Origin: Pseudonocardia sp.
Lineage (GTDB): Bacteria; Actinomycetota; Actinomycetes; Mycobacteriales; Pseudonocardiaceae
Reading direction: 5' to 3'
Assembly (NCBI GenBank): GCA_029263115.1
Contig: JAJCYC010000336.1
Span: forward strand, 1-36,058
Length of the DNA stretch: 36,058 nucleotides
In this document: positions 957 through 36,058 of the stretch, piece by piece
Layout of the letters: the number at the start of each line of letters is the position of its first letter
Position numbering within the stretch: position 1 is the stretch's first letter
Position numbers and translations under genes: made by a program
Notes under the pieces: generated by a model
What the model saw: the letters and a program-made list of their open reading frames with translations, nothing else
What the model was told of the DNA's origin: nothing
The model's database searches: none

Positions 957-2024
957 TCACCACAGCTGGGCGCGGTCGTGCGGGTCGCGCCGATCGCATC
1001 GGTACCGGCCGGGTCCCTGTTCGGGGCCTGCGAGCAGCAGGTCCTCTACCGGCAGCCGCGGGCTGCCGACCACCGGCCAGCCGTATCCGATCCGCAGCAC
1101 CGCCTGCGGCGGCCGGGCCGTCCCGACGAGCTCCCGGACGGCCGCCCGGATCTCCGGCAGCTCGACGAGCTGGGACACCGGAGAGACCGCGAGCCCGTGC
1201 GCCGTGGCGGTGAGCAGGACCCGCTGCAACGCCTCGCCGGCCAGCAGATCACCGAGCGGCCCGGCGGTGTGCGCGGTGAGCGTCGCGATCAGCGGCTCGC
1301 TCTCGAAACTAGAGTGCCCGGCCGGTTCCGGGCGCCGGTCGCCGGTGAAGTCGCGCAACACCCACGGGTCCCTCGGTGCCGGTGCCGGCCCACCGGCGCG
1401 GGCCGACACCCCGTCGCCGCGCGAACCGGTCTCGCCGCTCCACAACCCGAACTCGGCTACGAACCGGGGATCGGCCAGCTGCCGCCGGTGGGCTCGTGCG
1501 GACAGCTCACCGAGCTTCGCCAGCCGCTCCGGATCGGCGACGATGTCCAGCGTCGCTCCTTCGCGGCGGGCCGCCGAGCGGAGCTCGTGCCGGTGGGCGC
1601 CGGATACCGGATCGTCGGCGAAGGGCCGGCGGTTGGTCCGGCGCAGCGGTATCGCCGCGACCAGCGCGGCCTCCTCCGGCGTCGGTGGCTTCGCACCGCC
1701 GACGCGCACCTTGGCCAGCAACGTCGGGTGCCGCGGCTCCGGCATCCGGGTCACGATCGGGCGGACACCCACCTCGGACAGCGCCAGACGCAGGTTGAAC
1801 AGTGCCGCGCCGCAGCTCATCCGCAGTTCCACGCCGTCGGGGTCGGCGACCGGGAGCTGGCGTCGCGGGTCGGCGTGCAACTCGATCGCGGACTCGGTCA
1901 ACCGGAACCGCCACGGTTGGGTGTTGTGCACCGACGGCGCGCGGCCAGCGGCGCGCAGGACCCGTCGGACCTGCTCAGCGGTCAGCCCCATGGTCCCGCT
2001 GACTCGTGCGGTGACCTCGGCCAT
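957..2024 (-). CDS. Acg/Rv3131-type nitroreductase family protein
   Basis: A 355-residue protein of the Acg family, divergent flavin nitroreductase-fold proteins typical of dormancy regulons. In mycobacteria Acg-type proteins bind FMN but lack clear reductase activity, so the substrate is unknown. The family signature A-P-S-V-H-N-T-Q-P-W lies near residue 29. Further blocks are RRTNRRPF in the middle and LTATAHGLAVSPVSQLVELP near the C-terminus. The ATG at 2024 is chosen because AGGAGG sits a few bases upstream; the open frame extends further upstream but reads as non-coding. A DosR-type box pair lies about 80-115 bp upstream, between this gene and sulP, so it probably has its own promoter. 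A second family member is at 12120. Confidence 0.9.
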   Translation of the reverse strand: MAEVTARVSGTMGLTAEQVRRVLRAAGRAPSVHNTQPWRFRLTESAIELHADPRRQLPVADPDGVELRMSCGAALFNLRLALSEVGVRPIVTRMPEPRHPTLLAKVRVGGAKPPTPEEAALVAAIPLRRTNRRPFADDPVSGAHRHELRSAARREGATLDIVADPERLAKLGELSARAHRRQLADPRFVAEFGLWSGETGSRGDGVSARAGGPAPAPRDPWVLRDFTGDRRPEPAGHSSFESEPLIATLTAHTAGPLGDLLAGEALQRVLLTATAHGLAVSPVSQLVELPEIRAAVRELVGTARPPQAVLRIGYGWPVVGSPRLPVEDLLLAGPEQGPGRYRCDRRDPHDRAQLW

Positions 2025-6460: not shown

Positions 6461-7558
6461 TCAGGACGATCCGCGGAGGAGGCCACGGACCTCCCGGGCG
6501 ATCTCCAGGTCCTCCCGGGCACCGATCACTAGTGTCCGGACCCGCGCGTCGTCGGTGGATACGTCGAGGTCCGAACCGGGCGCGGAGGCGTTGCGGGCCG
6601 GATCGATCGTGACGCCGAGGTAGCCAAGCCGCTTTGCGGCCCGCCGCCGCACCAGCTCCGAGTTCTCGCCCACCCCACCGGTGAACACCAGCGCATCCAA
6701 GCCGCCGGTCGCGGCGGTCATCGCACCGATCCCGCCCACCAACCGGTGGACGTATACATCGAGGGCCAGCAGCGCATCTCGTTCGCCTCGACCGGCCGCT
6801 GCCTCGATGGCTCGCAGATCACCAGTCCCGGCCAGTCCGGCGAGCCCCGAGCGGTGCTCCAGCGCGACGGCCACCTCACGCGGCGTCAGGCCCTCGTGCT
6901 CGGTCAGCCACAGCACCAGCCCGGGGTCGACGCTGCCGGACCGGGTGGCCATGACCAGCCCTTCCAACGGGGTAAACCCCATGGTGGTGTCCACCGAACG
7001 GCCGTCGAGCACCGCCGCCAGGGAGGCGCCGGCGCCCAGGTGGCAGGTGACCAGCCGGCGCACCGGGCGGCCCAGCAGCCGCGCGGCGCGGCGTGCGCTG
7101 TAGGCGTGGGACAGCCCGTGGAAGCCGTACCGTCGCACGTGGTAGCGCTCCCGCCACTCGCGCGGGATGGCGTAGGTGGCGGCCCCGGCTGGCAGGGTGT
7201 GGTGGAAGGTGGTGTCGAAGCAGGCGACCGCCGGGGTCCGGGGCAGCAGGGCGGTCACCGCGTCCAGCGCGGCGAGCGACGGGGGCTGGTGCAGCGGGGC
7301 CAGGTCGGTGAGCTCGCGCAGCTCAGCCTCCACCATCTCGTCGACCACCGCCGGTCCGGTGAAGCGCTCGCCGCCGTGCGCCACCCGGTGCCCGACCGCG
7401 TCCGGCGCGGCCCACCCGGCGAGGATGTCCGTCAGCGCCGCCGCGTCGAACCCGTGCTCGCCGGACGGCAGGTCCGCGCTGTGCTCCAGCCGGTCCGCGC
7501 CATCCAGCAGCCGCAGCTTCAGGCTCGAAGAGCCGGCGTTGACCACCAGGACCCGCAT
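6461..7558 (-). CDS. ackA: Acetate kinase
   Basis: A 365-residue acetate kinase, interconverting acetyl phosphate + ADP and acetate + ATP in the cytosol. It starts MRVLVVNAGSSSLKLRLLDG, the phosphate-1 motif with the N-A-G-S-S-S-L-K signature. H-R-V-A-H-G-G lies near residue 58, and FDTTFHHTLP, RRYGFHGLSHAY, CHLGAGASLAAV and the catalytic-region MGFTPLEGLVMATRSGSVDPG follow. It is slightly short of the usual ~400 residues but all core motifs are present. The ATG at 7558 matches the canonical N-terminus; the ribosome site is weak, consistent with coupling to the phosphoketolase gene 28 bp upstream. Together they give the phosphoketolase to acetyl phosphate to ATP branch. Confidence 0.96.
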   Translation of the reverse strand: MRVLVVNAGSSSLKLRLLDGADRLEHSADLPSGEHGFDAAALTDILAGWAAPDAVGHRVAHGGERFTGPAVVDEMVEAELRELTDLAPLHQPPSLAALDAVTALLPRTPAVACFDTTFHHTLPAGAATYAIPREWRERYHVRRYGFHGLSHAYSARRAARLLGRPVRRLVTCHLGAGASLAAVLDGRSVDTTMGFTPLEGLVMATRSGSVDPGLVLWLTEHEGLTPREVAVALEHRSGLAGLAGTGDLRAIEAAAGRGERDALLALDVYVHRLVGGIGAMTAATGGLDALVFTGGVGENSELVRRRAAKRLGYLGVTIDPARNASAPGSDLDVSTDDARVRTLVIGAREDLEIAREVRGLLRGSS

Positions 7559-7586
7559 CAGCCCATGATCGCGCAACACCGTGGCC

Positions 7587-9986
7587 TCAGTGCGGCCAGG
7601 TCCAGCCCGCGATCTCCGGGTCGTCCTCGCCGTGCTCACGGGTATAGGCACGCGCGGCCAGCCGGGCATCCTCCATCCGCTGGCGCAGCACGGCCGCGGA
7701 CTCGGCCAACCCGGGCACCCGGTCGATCACGTCCATGACCAGGTGGAAGCGGTCGAGGTCGTTGAGCATCACCATGTCGAACGGCGTGGTGGTGGTGCCC
7801 TCCTCCTTGTAGCCGCGGACGTGGATGTTGTGGTGGTTGGTCCGCCGGTAGGTCAGCCGATGGATCAACGTCGGGTAGCCGTGGAAGGCGAAGATCACCG
7901 GCTTGTCCGTGGTGAACAGGGCGTCGAACGCCGCGTCGGACAGGCCGTGTGGGTGCTCGGAGTCCGGTTGCAGCCGCATCAGGTCGACCACGTTGACCAC
8001 CCGCACCGCCAGACCGGGCAGATGCCGGCGCAGCAGGTCGGCGGCGGCCAGGGTCTCGCACGTGGGGACGTCCCCGGCGCAGGCCAGCACCACGTCCGGT
8101 TCGCTGGTTGAGTTGCCCATCGGGGTGCTGGCCCAGTCCCAGATCCCCAGACCCTGGATGCAGTGCGCGATGGCCTCGTCCGGGCCGAGGTAGGTCAGTG
8201 CGGGCTGTTTGCCGGCCACGATGACGTTGACGTAGTGCCGGCTGCGCAGGCAGTGGTCGGCCACCGAGAGCAGGGTGTTGGTGTCCGGGGGCAGGTAGAC
8301 CCGGACGATCTCGGATTTCTTGTTCACCACGTGGTCGAGGAACCCGGGGTCCTGGTGGGAGAAGCCGTTGTGGTCCTGGCGCCATACGTGGGAGGAGAGC
8401 AGGTAGTTCAGCGACGCGATGGGTGGTCGCCACGGGATGTCCCGGGTGACCTTGAGCCATTTGGCGTGCTGGTTGAGCATCGAGTCGATGATGTGGATGA
8501 ACGCCTCGTAGCAGTTGAACAGCCCGTGCCGGCCGGTCAGCAGGTAGCCCTCCAGCCAGCCTTGGCACAGGTGCTCGGAGAGCACCTCCATCACCCGGCC
8601 GTCCAGCGCGAGGTGGTCGTCGCCGGGCCGGGTCTCGGCGTTCCAGGCCCGGTCGGTCACCTCGAACACGGCATCCAGCCGGTTGGAGGCGGTCTCGTCC
8701 GGGCCGAACAGCCGGAACCGGTCCGGGTTCGCCACGATCACGTCGCGTAGCAGCCGGCCCAGCACCCGGGTGGCCTCGCTGGTCTCGGCGCCCGGCCGCT
8801 GCACCGGCACCGTGTGCCGGCGGAAATCGGGCAAGTCGAGCGGGCGCAGCAGCTGTCCGCCGTTGGCGTGTGGGTTGGCGCTCATCCGTCGGGTGCCGGT
8901 GGGGGCGAGCGCGCGCAGCTCGGGCACCAGCCGGCCGGTGGCGTCGAACAGCTCCTCGGGCCGGTAGGACCGCAGCCATTGCTCCAGCGCGGCGCGGTGC
9001 CCGGCGTCATCCCGGGTCCGGGACAGCGGCACCTGGTGGGACCGGAAGGTGCCCTCCACCGGCAGCCCGTCGACCTCGGCCGGGCCGGTCCAGCCCTTCG
9101 GGGTTCGTAGCACGATCATCGGCCAGGCCGGCCGGGTGGTGCGTCCGTACCGGCGAGCCCACCGCTGGATGCCCGCGATCCGGTCGAGCACCCGGTCCAG
9201 GGTCGCCGCGAGCTGCCGGTGCACCGAGTCGGGGTCGTCGCCGGACACCAGGTGCGGCTCGTAGCCGTAGCCGGTGAGCAGCGCCTCCAACTCCTCCGGA
9301 GCGATCCGGTCCAGCAGGGTCGGGTTGGCGATCTTGTACCCGTTGAGGTGCAGCACCGGCAGTACGGCGCCGTCGCGGGCCGGGTCGAGGAACTTGTTCG
9401 AGTGCCAGCTCGCGGCGAGCGGCCCGGTCTCGGCCTCGCCGTCGCCGACCACGCACACCGCCAGCAGGTCGGGGTTGTCCAGCACCGCGCCGAAGGCATG
9501 CACAAGCGAGTAGCCGAGCTCGCCGCCCTCGTGGATCGAGCCCGGGGTCTCCGGCGCGACGTGGCTGGGGATGCCGCCGGGGAAGGAGAACTGGCGGAAG
9601 AGCGCGCGCAGCCCGTCCTCGTCCTCGGTGATCGCGGGGTAGACCTCGCTGTAGGTGCCCTCGAGGTAGGCGTTGGCGACCAGCCCCGGGCCACCGTGAC
9701 CCGGTCCGGTCACGTAGAGCACGTCGAGATCGCGGTGCCGGATGGCCCGGTTCAGGTGCGTGTAGATCAGGTTGAGGCCGGGTGTGGTGCCCCAGTGACC
9801 GAGCAGCCGCGGCTTGACGTGCTCCGCGCGCAGCGGCTCGCGCAGCAGCGGGTTGTCCAGCAGGTAGATCTGCCCGACCGACAGGTAGTTGGCCGCCCGC
9901 TAGTAGGCATCCACCAGGCGAAGCTGCTCGTGGTCGAGCGGCCGGGCACAAGGCTCCTCGATCATGTGAGCCGTACCGATCGTCAT
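7587..9986 (-). pseudogene. xfp: Phosphoketolase interrupted by an in-frame TAG at codon 29
   Basis: Xylulose-5-phosphate/fructose-6-phosphate phosphoketolase, a thiamine-diphosphate enzyme making acetyl phosphate and glyceraldehyde-3-phosphate. The reading frame spans 799 codons, the full family length, from ATG at 9986 (MTIGTAHMIEEP). At 9900-9902 a TAG replaces the tryptophan of the conserved [16 protein letters not shown] motif. After it the frame is intact for 770 codons, including [23 protein letters not shown], the ThDP/Mg region [19 protein letters not shown] and [11 protein letters not shown]. The ATG overlaps the stop of the membrane protein upstream (ATGA). A start downstream of the TAG would delete the N-terminal substrate region. 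It could be a true nonsense mutation, a suppressed amber or a base error. Confidence 0.93.
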
Positions 9987-10345
9987 GAAACCAAACCTCG
10001 CCTTCTGAACCTACCCGGCTCTCGGGTCTGCCGGTGGCTATGCCTGGCCATGAGCTTGTCGGCGATCAGCCAGAGCAGACCCAGCATGAACCACCCGGCA
10101 CCGAATACGACGAATCCGGCAAGCACGCCCACGATGGACGGATTGAGCTGGCTCCCCGTGTTGGGCGTGGATCCGGCGGTGGTGACAACGCCACCGGCCC
10201 AGATGCCGGCGGCGCACCCCGCCCACGTCGCTGCCAGGGCGGTCGCCAGCGCGGCTACGCCGACCAGGATCAGGACCGCGGCGGCAATGCGGTCCGATCG
10301 TCGGTCCGGCGCGGGGACCGGGTTTCGAACCTTGTGGATGTTCAT
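9983..10345 (-). CDS. Small two-helix membrane protein
   Basis: A 120-residue protein that I do not recognise at family level. Helix 1 is about residues 20-50 (AAAVLILVGVAALATALAATWAG). Helix 2 is about 72-98 (SIVGVLAGFVVFGAGWFMLG). A basic N-terminus and a basic C-terminal tail (ARHSHRQTREPGRFRRR) flank them, suggesting both ends face the cytosol. The ATG at 10345 lies 7 bp after the USP stop, and its own stop overlaps the phosphoketolase ATG, so it is translationally locked into this operon. The WFMLGLLWLIADKL motif resembles the second helix of the Rv1733c-like protein at 25287 (ALGLLWLLVERLLL), so a shared ancestry of the second helix is possible. Function unknown. Confidence 0.75.
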   Translation of the reverse strand: MNIHKVRNPVPAPDRRSDRIAAAVLILVGVAALATALAATWAGCAAGIWAGGVVTTAGSTPNTGSQLNPSIVGVLAGFVVFGAGWFMLGLLWLIADKLMARHSHRQTREPGRFRRRGLVS

Positions 10346-10352
10346 GCCGGTG

Positions 10353-10847
10353 TCAGGTCGATGCGGCGGTGACCCGCTCGTCGGGCATGGTCGGCGTTGT
10401 CGCTGGCACCGGTACGACCGTGACCGGACAGTGGGCGTGCAGCACGCACTGCAGGCTTACCGAGCCCAGGACCATGCTGGCGAACCCGCCGTGGCCCCGG
10501 TTGCCGACGACGAGCAGCTGCGCGTTGTGCGCGGCGTCCAGCAGCACCGCGGCGGCGTTGCCCCCGATCGCGCGCACCCGCACCACGGCGGCGCCGGCGT
10601 CGCCGAGGTTGGCCCGTGCGGCCGCGACGATCTGCTCGACCCGGGTGAACACCGCGTCCCGGACCTCCTCGACCGAGGGGCCCATGGACCAGCCGGGAAC
10701 GGCCGGGCCGGGCCAGAAGTCCGGCAGCGCGAACGCCCCGACCACGTCGACCTCGGCGCCCCGGATCGCGCCCTCCCGCAGCGCGTGCTCCAGCGCCGCC
10801 CGGCCGCCGGCCGAGTCGTCCACGCCCACCACGATCCGCTCGGTCAT
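10353..10847 (-). CDS. Single-domain universal stress protein
   Basis: A 164-residue single UspA domain. It opens MTERIVVGVDDSAGGRAALE and has an exact G-2x-G-9x-G-S motif (GNRGHGGFASMVLGS) followed by HAHCPVTVVPV, so ATP binding is likely. The ATG at 10847 follows GGGAGG; an adjacent GTG at 10850 is an alternative. It is the first gene of the operon USP > membrane protein > phosphoketolase > acetate kinase, with an 8-bp gap to the next gene. A divergent DosR-type box pair 100-130 bp upstream lies between it and the GAPDH-like gene. It is closely similar in layout to the USP at 21338, including the long segment before the ATP motif. Confidence 0.92.
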   Translation of the reverse strand: MTERIVVGVDDSAGGRAALEHALREGAIRGAEVDVVGAFALPDFWPGPAVPGWSMGPSVEEVRDAVFTRVEQIVAAARANLGDAGAAVVRVRAIGGNAAAVLLDAAHNAQLLVVGNRGHGGFASMVLGSVSLQCVLHAHCPVTVVPVPATTPTMPDERVTAAST

Positions 10848-10943
10848 CACGAACCTCCCGTCAGGCGGGCCGCCTATCGGCCCGGACAGCGCCTGCACCG
10901 GCGCGTCGAGGTCAAGGGTGCGTTCGTGCAGCGGTCGGCGGCA

Positions 10944-10979
10944 CGGTCATGGGTCCCGAAGACCCCGGCCGAAGGTCCT
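10944..10979. promoter_or_regulatory. DosR-type box pair between usp/xfp operon and gapdh-like gene
   Basis: On the minus strand 10966-10979 reads AGGAC CTTC GGCCG, one mismatch per half from GGGAC-N4-GNCCC. 10944-10957 reads GGGAC CCAT GACCG, with a perfect left half and one mismatch on the right. Centres are 22 bp apart. They lie in the 238-bp spacer between the divergent genes starting at 10847 and 11086. Confidence 0.6.
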
Positions 10980-11085
10980 GCCCCGGACCCGACGGCGGCC
11001 CGTCTGATCGCGCCCAACGACCCGATTGCCGGGGCGGCGCGGACGAGCACGATCGGCGGACCAGTCGAAACGAGCGGAGGACGCC

Positions 11086-12123
11086 ATGCGCACCCGGGTA
11101 GGCATTGACGGCATGGGTCAGGTGGGGCGTGCACTGTTGCGCGTCGTGAACGACTACCCCGACCGCGCGTTCGAGGTGGTGGCCGTCAACGACTCCGGGT
11201 CGGTCGACGGGCCGGTATCCTTGGAGACGCTCGCGCACCTGCTCCGACACGACCCGCCGTCCGCGCGACCGCCCGGCCGGATCGAGACCGGGCATAACCA
11301 GCTGGCCCTCGACGGGCGGCCGGTCCAAGTGCTGAGCGAGCCCGGTCCCGGGACGCCGCCGTGGGCCGATCTCGGGGTGGACATCGTCGTCGACGCCGCC
11401 GGTGGCCGGACGCCCGACCGCGCCGCGGCCCACTTGGCCGCCGGTGCCCGCAAGGTCGTGCTCGCCGGACCGGGCAGTGCCGCGCAGGTCACCGTGGCGA
11501 TCGGGATCAACGAGGACGACTACGAACCGTCGAGCCACCGGGTGGTCGCGAACGCCTCCGGCGCCGCCGCCTGTGCGGCGGCCATGATCACCGTCCTGCA
11601 CCGGGGTTTCGGAATCCGGCGCGGCCTGGTGACCACGGTCCGCGGGGACACCGAAGTGGACGACCGACCCGACGCCCTACGCCGCGAGCTGGGCCGCTCC
11701 CACCCGACACCGTTGGCGGTCATCCCGCGGACCAGCGACGTGATCAGGGCACTCGACGCGGCCACCCCGGAACTGGCCGGTCGGCTCAACGGCATGGCGC
11801 TGCGGGTGCCGATGGCCGACGCCTCGATTACGGACCTGACCGTGCAACTGAACGAGGTCGCGACCCCGGGGCAGGTGAACCGGGCCTTCGCCGAGGCGGC
11901 CCGTGGCCCGCTGAAGTCGATCCTGCGCTACGCCACCGAGCCGCTGATCTCCACCGACGTCGTCGGTGACCCCGCGTCCTGCGTGTTCGACGCCGGCTTG
12001 ACGACGACTTCGGGGACGATGGCGAAGGTCCTCGGTTGGTACGACCAGCTGGCCGGCCAGGCGCATCGCACGGTGGAGCTGGTCGACCTGGTCGCCCGCA
12101 TGCTGCCGGAGGTGCGGTCGTGA
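11086..12123 (+). CDS. GAPDH-fold paralogue lacking the catalytic Cys and His
   Basis: A 345-residue protein clearly built on glyceraldehyde-3-phosphate dehydrogenase. It has an N-terminal Rossmann G-x-G-x-x-G variant (GIDGMGQVGR), AVND near residue 33, LGVDIVVDAAGGR, KVVLAGPG, a C-terminal TSGTMAKVLGWYD, and usual length. The active-site run S-C-T-T-N-C is replaced by S-G-A-A-A-C: residue 159, the nucleophile, is glycine and only the second cysteine (C163) remains. The catalytic histidine position (usually T-T-V-H) reads TTVRGDT. Phosphorylating GAPDH activity therefore looks impossible. NAD binding or a regulatory role is conceivable. The ATG at 11086 follows GGAGG. Its stop overlaps the GTG of the nitroreductase. 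Confidence 0.88.
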   Translation: MRTRVGIDGMGQVGRALLRVVNDYPDRAFEVVAVNDSGSVDGPVSLETLAHLLRHDPPSARPPGRIETGHNQLALDGRPVQVLSEPGPGTPPWADLGVDIVVDAAGGRTPDRAAAHLAAGARKVVLAGPGSAAQVTVAIGINEDDYEPSSHRVVANASGAAACAAAMITVLHRGFGIRRGLVTTVRGDTEVDDRPDALRRELGRSHPTPLAVIPRTSDVIRALDAATPELAGRLNGMALRVPMADASITDLTVQLNEVATPGQVNRAFAEAARGPLKSILRYATEPLISTDVVGDPASCVFDAGLTTTSGTMAKVLGWYDQLAGQAHRTVELVDLVARMLPEVRS

Positions 12124-13103
12124 TCGTCGAGACCGTTTCCGAGAAGTCGGTGCTGGCCGCGCTGGACCTGGCCTGCTGTGCGCCGTCGGTGCACAACAGC
12201 CAGCCCTGGCTGTGGCGATTGGGCCCCGGTGTCATTCACCTCTACTCCGACCCCCGGCGTTGGCTGACGGCGACCGACCCGGATGCCCGTGACCTGGTGC
12301 TCAGCTGCGGCGCCGTGCTGCACCACCTGACCGTCGCGCTGGTCGCCACCGAGATCGGGTCGGTGGTGCATCGGCTGCCCAACCGCGCGGAGCCTGACCA
12401 CCTGGCCGCCGTCGAGCTGATGCCGGGAACCAGCACGGCGACCGACCTGGAACTCGCCGCAGCGATCTCCCGGCGTCGCACCGACCGCCGCCGGTTCGCC
12501 GACTGGCCGCAGCCCGCCGGGCACCTGGATCTGCTGACCAGGGCGGCCGCCGGACAGGGTGCGCTGCTGCGTGCGGTGACCGAGCCGACCCAGCGACGCC
12601 TGTTGGCCGCCGCGATCGACTACGCTGCGGTGGAGCAGGACTCCACCCCGGGCTACCCGACGGAGATCGGCCTGTGGAGTGGCGGGCGGGCTGCGGCGTG
12701 CGGCGTGCCGGCGGCGAACGTGCCCCGGTCCGGGAACGACGCCATGGTGCTGCCGATGCGCCGCTGGGCTGACGGTGATCTGGTCCAGCGCCGCTCCGGC
12801 GAGGATGGTGCGACGATCCTGGTGCTCGGGACGTCGTCGGACGACCGGCTCTCCCAGCTGCGGGCGGGGGAGGCGTGCAGCGCGGTGCTGCTGGCCGCCA
12901 CCGGTCTCGGTCTGGCCAGCAGCGTGCTGAGTCAGCCGCTCGAGATACCGGCCACCCGCCGCCTGGTTCGGGACGGCGTGCTCGGCGGCACGCTGTGCCC
13001 GCAGCTGGTGATCCGGGTGGGCTGGCCACCGGCGGGCGCCCCGCCGCTGCCGGCGACCCCGCGACGGCCGGTGTCCGAGCTCCTGCGGCCGACCTCGGAG
13101 TGA
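12120..13103 (+). CDS. Acg/Rv3131-type nitroreductase family protein
   Basis: A 327-residue second Acg-family protein. It carries the signature A-P-S-V-H-N-S-Q-P-W near residue 21, RRRTDRRRFADW near residue 118, and LLAATGLGLASSVLSQPLEIP near the C-terminus. The GTG at 12120 overlaps the GAPDH-like stop by GTGA and is preceded by GGAGG, so translation is coupled. It differs much from the copy at 957 outside the signature blocks, so it is not a recent duplicate. Like Acg it may bind or store flavin; the reaction is unknown. The following permease starts 8 bp downstream. Confidence 0.9.
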   Translation: MIVETVSEKSVLAALDLACCAPSVHNSQPWLWRLGPGVIHLYSDPRRWLTATDPDARDLVLSCGAVLHHLTVALVATEIGSVVHRLPNRAEPDHLAAVELMPGTSTATDLELAAAISRRRTDRRRFADWPQPAGHLDLLTRAAAGQGALLRAVTEPTQRRLLAAAIDYAAVEQDSTPGYPTEIGLWSGGRAAACGVPAANVPRSGNDAMVLPMRRWADGDLVQRRSGEDGATILVLGTSSDDRLSQLRAGEACSAVLLAATGLGLASSVLSQPLEIPATRRLVRDGVLGGTLCPQLVIRVGWPPAGAPPLPATPRRPVSELLRPTSE

Positions 13104-21983: not shown

Positions 21984-23765
21984 ATGGCATCGGGTGTCGA
22001 CCCCGCGCACCTGCCGGCCGATCCCGCCGATGGTGCGCCGCCGGCGGGCCCCACCGACCAGCAGGAACTCTCGTTGAGTTTCCCGGAGCTGCCGCGGTTG
22101 GAGCTCGACGACCTGCTGGCTCAGCTGGTCGAGCGCGCGCAGGAGGTGGTGGCCACCCAGGGCCGGCTGCGCGGGCTGCTGCGGGCGAACCAGGCGATCA
22201 TCGGCGACCTGGCGCTGCCGGTGCTGCTGCGGCGGATCGTCGAGGCCGCCCGGACTCTGGTCGGAGCCCGGTACGCGGCGCTCGGGGTGATCGCTCCGGA
22301 CGGTCACCTGGCGGAGTTCGTGCACCTGGGGATGCCCACCGACGCGGTGGAACGGATCGGTCATCTTCCGGAGGGCAAGGGTCTGCTCGGTGCGTTGATC
22401 GACGACCCTCGGCCGATCCGTCTGCGGCAGATCACCGCTGACGAGCGATCCTCCGGCTTCCCTGCCGGCCATCCGCCGATGCACAGCTTCCTCGGGGTGC
22501 CGATCCGGGTACGGGACATCGTGTTCGGCAACCTCTACCTTTCCGAGAGCACCAAGGGCGAGTTCAGTGCCGAGGACGAGGAGCTGGCCGCCGCGCTCGC
22601 TGCCACGGCCGGAATGGTGATCGACAACGCCCGCTTGTTCGAGGTCGCGGGCGCCCGGCAGGACTGGCTCCGGGCCTCCGGGGAGATCACCCGGGAGTTG
22701 CTCTCGGGTGAGGCCGACGATGCGGTGCGGCCATTGCGGCTGATCGCCGAGCACTGCCGCGAAGTCGCGCGGGCCAAGATCGTCACCGTGGTGCTACCGG
22801 TGCCCGGTGCCGAGGAGCTGCAGGTCGAGGTGGCGGTCGGTCCCTTCGAAGGCGACCTGACCGGGGTACGGGTGCCGTTGGATCGGTCGCTGTCCGGGCG
22901 GGTGTTCGCGTCCCGGGTCCCGTTGCGCGTCACCTCGCCCGATGATCCGTCGCTGGGCGCGGTCACCTCGGGGGAGCTCGACGTCGGCCCGGTGATGGTG
23001 CTGCCGCTACTGGGGTCGGAGAAGGTGCACGGTGTGCTCACCGCAGCCCGCGATCGGGGACGCGCGGCGTTCACCGAAGAGGACCTCGATATGGCGGCCG
23101 GGTTCGCCAACCAGGCGTCGGTGGCCATCGAGCTGGCGGCCGCGCGCACCGAGCAGCAGCGGGTCGCCATGCTCGACGATCGTGACCGGATCGCCGCCGA
23201 CCTGCACGACCACGTCATCCAGCGACTCTTCGGCACCGGCTTGTCGTTGCACGGCATCGCCGCGACCTTGAGTCCAGGACAACCGAAGGAGCGGCTGATG
23301 GCCGCCGTCGGGGACATCGACGGCACCATCAGCCAGATCCGGACCACCATCTACCAGCTGGGCCAAGCGGCGGACCCCGACCGGGGCCTGCGCGGCCGGC
23401 TGCTGGACGTGGTCATCGACCTCACCCCGACACTGGCGTTCGACCCGGCCGTCCGGTTCGCCGGGGTGCTGGAGGGCACGGTCCCAGACGAGGTCGCCGA
23501 CGACCTCGTGGCGGTGCTGCGGGAGGCGCTGACGAACGCGGCCCGGCACGCCCAGGCGCGAAGCGCGACCGTCAGCGTCACGGCCGGCTCGGGATTGGTC
23601 ACCCTGGTGGTGGCCGATGACGGCCACGGCATCGACTGGGCCCTGACTCGTCGCAGCGGGCTGGCCAACCTGCGCCGGCGGGCCGAGCAGCACGACGGCG
23701 AGCTGGAGATCCGCGCTGTCGAGCCGCACGGCACCGAGCTCCGATGGTCGGCTCGGATCAGCTGA
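21984..23765 (+). CDS. devS: DevS/DosT-type heme-GAF oxygen-sensing histidine kinase
   Basis: A 593-residue cytosolic sensor kinase. GAF-A is about residues 75-220, GAF-B about 240-385, the dimerisation/phosphotransfer domain about 390-460, and the ATPase domain about 500-593. H163 in the H-P-P-M motif aligns with the heme-ligating H149 of M. tuberculosis DevS, and Y185 in FGNLYL with the distal Y171. Residue 101 is Gly, as in DosT, where DevS has E87. The phospho-acceptor is H408 in DRIAADLHDHVIQ. N-box (REALTNAARHA) and G-boxes (ADDGHGI, SGLANLRRRAEQ) are present. The ATG at 21984 follows AAGGAG. It is convergent with devR. It would autophosphorylate when oxygen falls and pass phosphate to DevR (inference). 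Confidence 0.95.
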   Translation: MASGVDPAHLPADPADGAPPAGPTDQQELSLSFPELPRLELDDLLAQLVERAQEVVATQGRLRGLLRANQAIIGDLALPVLLRRIVEAARTLVGARYAALGVIAPDGHLAEFVHLGMPTDAVERIGHLPEGKGLLGALIDDPRPIRLRQITADERSSGFPAGHPPMHSFLGVPIRVRDIVFGNLYLSESTKGEFSAEDEELAAALAATAGMVIDNARLFEVAGARQDWLRASGEITRELLSGEADDAVRPLRLIAEHCREVARAKIVTVVLPVPGAEELQVEVAVGPFEGDLTGVRVPLDRSLSGRVFASRVPLRVTSPDDPSLGAVTSGELDVGPVMVLPLLGSEKVHGVLTAARDRGRAAFTEEDLDMAAGFANQASVAIELAAARTEQQRVAMLDDRDRIAADLHDHVIQRLFGTGLSLHGIAATLSPGQPKERLMAAVGDIDGTISQIRTTIYQLGQAADPDRGLRGRLLDVVIDLTPTLAFDPAVRFAGVLEGTVPDEVADDLVAVLREALTNAARHAQARSATVSVTAGSGLVTLVVADDGHGIDWALTRRSGLANLRRRAEQHDGELEIRAVEPHGTELRWSARIS

Positions 23766-23786: not shown

Positions 23787-24464
23787 CTACAGCGGCTGTG
23801 CGACCTTGCGGCCGTTGGTGCGCTCATTGATCCGCAGTTCCGCCGCGTACACGGCAGCTTCGGTGCGGCGGTTGAATCCCAGCTTGTGAAGCAGTGACGA
23901 CACGTAGTTCTTCACGGTCTTCTCGGCCAGGTAGAGCTCCGCGCCGATCTGCCGGTTGGTCATCCCGTCCGCGATCAACCCGAGGATCCGCTTCTCCTGG
24001 GGGCTGAGCGCGCCCAGCTTCGGGTCCTCCGGCTCGGCGCCGCGCCGCAGCCGCTCGAGGACGGTGGTCGTGGCCCGAGGATCCAGCAGTGACTTGCCTT
24101 CCGCCACCGTGCGTACCGCGCCGACCAGGTCGATCCCGGTCACCTGCTTGAGCAGGTAGCCGGCGGCGCCGGCCATGATCGCGGCGAACAGCGCCTCGTC
24201 GTCGGAGTAGGAGGTCAGCATCAGGCAGGCCGGCGGCGGGTCGACCGAGGACCGCAGCTCCCGGCACACCTCCACCCCGTCCCCGTCGGGCAGCCGCACA
24301 TCCAGCACCGCCACGTCCGGGCGCAGCGCCGGCACCCGGGCCAACGCCTGGGCCGCGTTCGCGGCCTCACCGACCACGGTGATGTCCGGTTCGGCTTCGA
24401 GCAGCTGCGCGATGCCCCGGCGCACGATCTCGTGGTCGTCGAGCAGGAACACCGAGATGCTCAC
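23787..24464 (-). CDS. devR: DevR/DosR-type NarL-family response regulator
   Basis: A 225-residue response regulator. The receiver domain (residues 1-120) has acidic D9/D10, phospho-acceptor D55 in VAVLDVRLPDGDG, T84 and K106, matching D54, T82 and K104 of M. tuberculosis DevR. The LuxR-type DNA-binding domain (about 155-215) contains LSPQEKRILGLIADGMTNRQIG and the recognition helix E-K-T-V-K-N-Y-V-S, identical to mycobacterial DevR at the known DNA-contact positions. This supports the GGGAC-type boxes in this window as its targets. The GTG at 24464 follows GGAGG. A DosR-type box 60-70 bp upstream suggests autoregulation. It is convergent with devS (21-bp gap). Confidence 0.95.
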   Translation of the reverse strand: MSISVFLLDDHEIVRRGIAQLLEAEPDITVVGEAANAAQALARVPALRPDVAVLDVRLPDGDGVEVCRELRSSVDPPPACLMLTSYSDDEALFAAIMAGAAGYLLKQVTGIDLVGAVRTVAEGKSLLDPRATTTVLERLRRGAEPEDPKLGALSPQEKRILGLIADGMTNRQIGAELYLAEKTVKNYVSSLLHKLGFNRRTEAAVYAAELRINERTNGRKVAQPL

Positions 24465-35840: not shown

Positions 35841-35976
35841 TCCCGCGCGTACCCGGGTGGGCGCGGTCGACACACGCGCCATTCTCCCGGATTGCGCTTA
35901 CCTGGGCGGACGCCGGCCTAAGGACTCACGACGAAGTAACGTAGGTTTTCGGGTCCGGGGACTTACCGTCTGTGCT

Positions 35977-36058
35977 ATGGCGATCGATGGGCAGGTCGGG
36001 CAGTCGGTAGCGCGTAGGTATGCGGTGTTGCGTCCGTATCTGGACGAGCGGCAGCGCC
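35977..36058 (+). mobile_element. ISAzo13-like transposase, 5' end only
   Basis: ATG at 35977 starts MAIDGQVGQSVARRYAVLRP followed by YLDERQR, the N-terminal signature of ISAzo13-family transposases. The gene runs off the window after 27 codons. The left end of the element should lie within roughly 60-100 bp upstream, but the terminal repeat cannot be fixed without the other end. Confidence 0.75.

Follow-up and report, generated by a model that had tools for sequence, protein, structure and literature searches.

The window, meaning the whole stretch of 36,058 nucleotides of Pseudonocardia DNA analysed here, contains a gene for a glyceraldehyde-3-phosphate dehydrogenase (GAPDH)-like protein, GAPx [Table 1]. 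Its reading frame translates without a stop into 345 amino acids, and both GAPDH domains lie above the Pfam cut-offs (Gp_dh_N, 63.5 bits; Gp_dh_C, 114.7 bits). The best E-value against solved GAPDH structures was 3.5e-73; a single-sequence structure prediction was uninformative (pLDDT 35). On the divergent side, the genes follow in the order USPc, small ORF, xfp and ackA. A preliminary description had placed GAPx divergent from a phosphoketolase operon; xfp indeed lies on that side, but the nearest gene is USPc, followed by the small ORF. The same description assigned the locus to a dormancy cluster, in agreement with the DosR/DosS-like pair and the universal stress protein (USP) and nitroreductase genes near GAPx, which form a DosR-like cluster. 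At the far end of the window, about 140 bp (35918-36058) recur on 14 contigs, the window's included, and are found several times at a contig end; we take them to resemble the start of an insertion-sequence transposase.

Table 1. Coordinates of the features in the window
Feature	Position	Strand	Remark
NTR1, second nitroreductase-family gene	957..2024	-	
ackA, acetate kinase	6461..7579	-	divergent side, beyond xfp
xfp, phosphoketolase	7587..9986	-	in-frame stop at codon 29
Small ORF	9983..10345	-	without Pfam match
USPc, universal stress protein	10353..10847	-	nearest divergent neighbour of GAPx
Divergent promoter region, USPc/GAPx	10848..11085	.	intergenic
DosR-type site GGGACN4GNCC	10945..10957	-	141 bp upstream of GAPx
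GAPx	11086..12123	+	GAPDH-like pseudoenzyme, 345 aa; Gly159 for Cys149, Arg186 for His176
GAPx codon Gly159 (GGC)	11560..11562	+	replaces catalytic cysteine; motif S158, C163 retained
GAPx codon Arg186	11641..11643	+	replaces catalytic histidine
Former S-loop of GAPx	11653..11751	+	residues 190-222; dN 0.42, dS 0.43 (dN/dS ~1) between copies
NTR2, nitroreductase-family (Acg-like) gene	12120..13103	+	GTG start overlaps GAPx stop codon by 4 nt
DosS-like GAF-GAF histidine kinase	22074..23765	+	
DosR-like response regulator	23787..24464	-	receiver and GerE domain

Across the window, the motif GGGACN4GNCC has 15 matches, one palindrome among them scored on either strand, versus 8.2 matches expected, a number reached in 3 of 100 shuffles. 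In the first 25 kb, of which 81% is called coding, 13 of 14 matches fall between called genes. The full DosR palindrome, allowing two mismatches, showed no enrichment in the window (48 matches versus 68 expected). The shape of GGGACN4GNCC is that of the OsdR consensus AGGGCCGATCGGCCCT, as presented in PMC5069765.

Active site and second copy of GAPx

Residue numbers and roles follow throughout the scheme of B. stearothermophilus GAPDH. Catalysis by the cysteine of GAPDH is textbook knowledge. The nucleophile motif of GAPx reads S158-G159-A-A-A-C163, versus SCTTNC in active relatives, and the histidine region reads T183-T-V-R186 versus TT(I/V/L)H. All 88 control rows (78 active dormancy-type, 10 housekeeping) possess Cys149 and His176, and GAPx has neither. 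T150, T151, N152, Y178, D181, G209, N313, Y317 and S119 are substituted as well. Judged by these residues, GAPx has probably lost GAPDH activity. An apparent TTIHGDQ motif in BLAST alignments was a gap-placement artefact, exposed by MAFFT realignment.

Three GAPDH-like genes occur in the assembly: GAPx, a copy that is 78% identical to it and lies on contig C259 (L061/P0002), and a housekeeping copy adjoining pgk. The last was found as an ORF beside pgk and is of gap-type by its SCTTNC motif and its TIGR01534 score. The C259 copy shows the motifs SGSVSC and TTVR, i.e. the Gly and Arg of GAPx, and a sequencing slip as cause of the two changes is thereby ruled out. This copy is preceded at 119 bp by a GGGACN4GNCC site. 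The replacement of cysteine (position 159) and of the catalytic histidine within an intact frame, reported beforehand from the letters of the window, was thus confirmed by translation, alignment and the C259 copy. The Rossmann motif and the coupled downstream neighbour of that report were recovered too, the former with N6→D and R10→Q, the latter as the overlap with NTR2. Residues 38-43 of GAPx (11197-11214) are a six-residue insertion past the second Rossmann strand, absent from the C259 copy. T179, R195 and R231, which we take to be the substrate-phosphate residues, are retained in both copies. S119, N313 and Y317, presumably on the nicotinamide side, are A, Q and Q in both. The remaining changes in the NAD site of the pair are N6→D (window copy), R10→Q/E and T96→A. 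On NCBIfam model TIGR01534 (cut-off 367.2 bits), GAPx (228) and the C259 copy (224) both stay below the threshold; the housekeeping copy scores 433.

Most of the window, from position 1 to about 32200, has a counterpart on contigs C259 and C6, made up of collinear pieces with 85-94% nucleotide identity. Two stretches are largely or wholly absent there: about 2.8 kb (12.8-15.6 kb), and 20.5-23.3 kb for the most part. The second copy may derive from a binned related organism, the two genes being orthologues without any duplication. This origin falls somewhat short of an even chance; the nucleotide identity and an estimated contamination of 2.5% speak for it, the single full match of the housekeeping gap-pgk region in the assembly against it. 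Whether the C259/C6 stretch arose by duplication of the dormancy island or belongs to a binned relative, the lost residues are common to two diverged genes. Both islands are in partial decay, because neighbours of GAPx are broken in each: xfp carries its stop in the window and is open in C259, and NTR2 is open in the window and broken in C259. GAPx itself is open in both copies (339-345 codons) at a dS of 0.49.

Nucleophile loss among relatives

Searched with a profile, 390 genomes of the family yielded 83 rows of at least 485 bits, set off by a gap from rows at 471 bits and below. All 83 active sites were read, including one row (G247) that lies outside the clade in trees. Cys149 is intact in 73 and lost in 10. 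Three further genes without the nucleophile score below 485 bits (G202, G004, G372). The total is at least 13 genes in 12 genomes, with low-scoring family rows read among the matches listed and as second copies in selected genomes, so that dead low scorers were possibly missed. Glycine occupies the position in 11 genes of 10 genomes (this genome with two, six genomes of genus g24, two of g44, and G335), alanine in two (G202, G004). Glycine at the nucleophile therefore occurs beyond this genome, the point on which the preliminary description had asked for a homologue search. Private decay is ruled out by the C259 copy together with 11 nucleophile-less genes in other genomes. The change of His176 to Arg is restricted, among the genes read, to the two copies of this genome. 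Split copies of the paralogue were found in G299 and G015. The other GAPDHs of the 12 genomes, among the matches listed, look to be of housekeeping type or more distant, and none looks like an intact clade member. A non-catalytic function of the kept paralogue is suggested, because the dead copy seems to replace the intact one in its genome.

Beyond the family, the analysis covered 9 of 24 new rows at the level of the order and 10 of 16 at that of the class. All 19 keep the cysteine; 18 are dormancy-type and one (L156) is housekeeping by its pgk neighbour. The paralogue clade is scattered across the class, and its active site is mostly intact (SCTTNC). A search of 264 plasmid records returned none at 60% identity or more, and a wider scan of genome contigs a single match (30%) in a Desulfobacterales assembly. 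The TIGR01534 cut-off is passed by the active dormancy-type proteins L070, L091 and L157 (400-421 bits) and by the nucleophile-less L145 (384) and L144 (391), and is failed by P0003, L077 and L078, which also lack the nucleophile. The gene-naming model consequently calls some dead proteins (L144, L145) type I GAPDH.

With the active-site columns removed, a tree of 67 rows (13 of them lost, L190 included) requires four changes, and none of 200 bootstrap trees had only one. Thirty-four near-duplicate, partial or housekeeping rows had been dropped beforehand. A single ancient loss, i.e. one clade of all 13, was rejected (p-AU 0.004). Constraining the window pair together with the G202/G004 pair was not rejected (p-AU 0.32), and an earlier quick tree joined these pairs and required three changes. 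Quick trees that likewise omitted the active-site columns required four changes, or three with L077 and L078 left out. Three or four losses are thus indicated by the trees, each nested among intact clade members; the count is a range because the window pair and G202/G004 may share one loss. The codons at the nucleophile position are GGC, GGT and GGA for glycine and GCC and GCG for alanine. A single base separates Gly GGC from TGC, and one more base leads from GGC to Ala GCC. In the g24/g44 clade, glycine is fixed in 8 of 8 genes with three codons, and the next three residues drift. The recurrent conversion to a pseudoenzyme in this dormancy GAPDH clade is real.

Neighbourhoods were labelled with a simple gene caller and BLASTP against the window genes (E 1e-6). 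The counts exclude the window itself, L190 and all loci with less than 8 kb of flank, the latter being 1 of 11 lost, 5 of 78 active and 1 of 9 housekeeping loci. Within 7 kb of the 10 lost loci, USP and nitroreductase genes were present at all 10, CBS at 6 and Xfp at 2. The 73 active loci had USP at 53, nitroreductase at 34, CBS at 35 and Xfp at 4, and any of the four at 62. Among eight housekeeping loci, USP occurred once and nitroreductase, CBS and Xfp not at all; pgk lies beside 6 of these 8 and beside none of the lost or active dormancy loci. The nitroreductase excess at lost loci (10/10 versus 34/73) has a Fisher p of 0.001, the loci being related and hence not independent evidence. After removal of upstream regions shorter than 200 bases, a DosR-like site was counted upstream of 24 of 78 active genes (4.8 expected), 3 of 11 lost genes, two of these three sites being this genome's own, and 1 of 10 housekeeping genes.

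Individual loci showed further neighbours. An M50-peptidase gene (L081:9601-10356, g24) and an M50-CBS gene (L145:8022-9233, g44) each directly follow a nucleophile-less GAPDH. L077 has an HSP20 neighbour, and L078 has AAA_33 and CBS neighbours. In L157-L159 and L067, active dormancy GAPDHs lie beside or between DosR-like and DosS-like genes. An active dormancy GAPDH is immediately preceded by a PPDK/PEP-synthase-like gene (L112:4456-6699), and at several other loci the GAPDH adjoins a 749-aa gene.

Constraint and retained residues

Between the window and C259, the GAPx pair has a dN/dS of 0.25 (95% bootstrap 0.18-0.35). Eleven of 13 measured neighbour genes range from 0.10 to 0.35 between the islands; USPe reaches 0.63, and the thirteenth, USPd (0.86), was paired with the wrong gene. 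Six other lost pairs gave 0.14-0.23 (four pairs of g24), 0.09 (g44) and 0.39 (G202/G004), and four active pairs 0.13-0.24. The G335 gene is without a close partner and stands outside this set.

Residues were compared in 12 lost, 78 active and 10 housekeeping rows; L190 is absent from this table as well as from the upstream-site, neighbourhood and conserved-position counts. The lost rows fall into two grades. Grade 1 comprises eight rows (G335, two of g44, five of g24) in which the cysteine is lost and in some rows also T150, T151, N152 or T174. S119 and P121 are changed in addition in the five g24 rows. His176, T179, R195, T208, G209, R231, N313 and Y317 are retained in 8 of 8. Grade 2, formed by the window pair, G202 and G004, has also lost the histidine, Y178, D181, G209, N313 and Y317. 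The aligned row of L190 (G372, g24) retains the histidine and shows altered S-loop residues. S148, C153, D32, G7, G12, T173, W310 and R231 are retained in all 12 lost rows.

Conserved positions of the dinucleotide half are kept at 12 of 15 in both GAPx and the C259 copy, those of the C-terminal half at 31 and 30 of 41, respectively. Around the catalytic residues, 13 of 21 are kept in both. The S-loop, which we take to build the tetramer core and the substrate pocket in GAPDH, preserves 3 of 18 positions in GAPx and 5 of 18 in the C259 copy. Drift in the S-loop of the window pair is neutral, and the dinucleotide-binding and C-terminal parts are kept. Residues 170-189 form a run of 20 residues identical in both copies, which includes TTVRGDT.

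Function and comparison with known systems

GAPx descends from a GAPDH paralogue found mostly in DosR-type neighbourhoods, whose nucleophile was lost in at least three lineages with the gene still constrained. The paralogue would accordingly have a non-catalytic task in dormancy, one that does not require the enzymatic reaction. GAPx is read here as a pseudoenzyme of a DosR-type regulon in which a non-catalytic role outlived the GAPDH activity, most likely the binding of NAD(H) or another adenine dinucleotide beside an Acg-like partner; for the reading as a whole the chances are about even. Its first part, the constrained pseudoenzyme, is well supported. An adenine dinucleotide is the probable ligand because the dinucleotide half is kept and the mycobacterial protein Acg holds FMN without using NAD(P)H. 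The retained half of the site is presumably the dinucleotide-binding half of GAPDH. Translated together with the Acg-like flavoprotein NTR2, GAPx would bind NAD(H) or ADP-ribose via the retained half of the Rossmann fold and could thereby retain pyridine nucleotide, or report on it, in the resting cell. Since several residues that contact NAD differ in the window pair, this pair may have lost the ability to bind NAD(H).

The neutral S-loop, the broken xfp here and the broken NTR2 in C259, and the split copies in G299 and G015 could also be expected of relaxed decay, in which GAPx would be on its way to inactivation, though not yet frameshifted, within a dormancy island that is itself decaying. 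This is unlikely, as the whole-gene dN/dS, even at its upper bound of 0.35, lies within the range of 11 of the 13 neighbours and near the active paralogues, both copies are open at the divergence given above, and the same loss is kept in other lineages at dN/dS 0.09-0.39. Catalysis of another reaction in the remodelled site, without Cys149, would fit the TTVRGDT motif inside the identical run and the Ser148 and Cys153 retained in 12 of 12 lost rows. It is very improbable, the nicotinamide-facing residues being lost in the window pair, so that NAD-dependent hydride transfer is unlikely there.

The preliminary description had favoured a sensor of triose phosphate or NADH, or a subunit poisoning housekeeping GAPDH tetramers. 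T179, R195 and R231 persist in the window pair, and the eight grade 1 rows keep the residues listed above, much like engineered Cys149 mutants. Against this stand, in the window pair, the nearly unconserved and neutral S-loop and the loss of G209, D181, N313 and Y317, further the changed S119 of five g24 rows, and a xfp neighbourhood that is not conserved. A sensor or poison is therefore improbable overall. For the window lineage, the S-loop makes mixed tetramers unlikely and tells against the poisoning proposed; mixed tetramers are possible for grade 1 proteins. A triose-phosphate/NAD(H) sensor may exist in the lineages in which hardly more than Cys149 has gone (G335, g44 and most of g24). 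The link drawn from phosphoketolase to its product glyceraldehyde-3-phosphate is not supported, with Xfp so rare near lost and active loci alike and the window xfp stopped early. What stands of the earlier proposal is a dead GAPDH, its catalytic residues gone and its gene constrained, kept in a dormancy cluster.

The pseudoenzyme reading can be extended: selection may have turned the dormancy GAPDH of several actinomycete lineages into a cofactor-holding pseudoenzyme, by Cys→Gly first and then across the whole reaction site. With Acg-like FMN proteins it would form a store or sensor of redox cofactors, and active members would share a hidden non-catalytic function. This wider proposal is tentative and rather doubtful. 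Repeated loss of the cysteine in a constrained paralogue would amount to a natural experiment separating an enzymatic from a non-enzymatic role of GAPDH. It offers a way to learn the function of dormancy-regulon GAPDHs, Streptomyces Gap3 among them, and suggests that DosR-type regulons gather cofactor-binding proteins without turnover.

Among the open-licence papers listed, titles and abstract starts named no nucleophile-less or inactive dormancy GAPDH; one paper, on human GAPDH in mitophagy (PMC4604685), uses the term 'catalytically inactive GAPDH'. The main text of the OsdR paper (PMC5069765) contains neither 'glyceraldehyde' nor 'GAPDH'.

Type I phosphorylating GAPDH (TIGR01534/PF00044 and PF02800) shares with GAPx both domains, the length, and T179, R195 and R231; unlike it, GAPx is without Cys149, His176, N313 and Y317 and far below the model cut-off. 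The Cys149 mutants of B. stearothermophilus GAPDH (1nq5/1nqo) are without the nucleophile but keep the rest of the site (SSTTNC), much as g44 and G335 do. The Cys→Ser protein of these structures reportedly binds ligand. The mutants are engineered, however, and the window lineage has changed much further. Human ALDH16, which we take to belong to a superfamily different from that of GAPDH, is likewise a dehydrogenase without a nucleophile, but has a human host and no dormancy context, and serves as an analogy only. It is described as a natural aldehyde dehydrogenase without the catalytic cysteine and a proposed binding protein (PMC8160307). Streptomyces Gap3 resembles GAPx in being a GAPDH paralogue linked with an OsdR/DosR-type programme, its function being termed unknown (PMC6302529); the likeness is one of description, clade membership and active site aside. 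Mycobacterial Acg (Rv2032) is an FMN protein induced by DosR; it can use neither NADH nor NADPH, and a cofactor-sequestration model is given for it (PMC11841060). Acg has a nitroreductase fold and is not homologous to GAPx; it represents the likely type of partner, nitroreductase-family genes adjoining GAPx, and by this analogy NTR2 may work like Acg.
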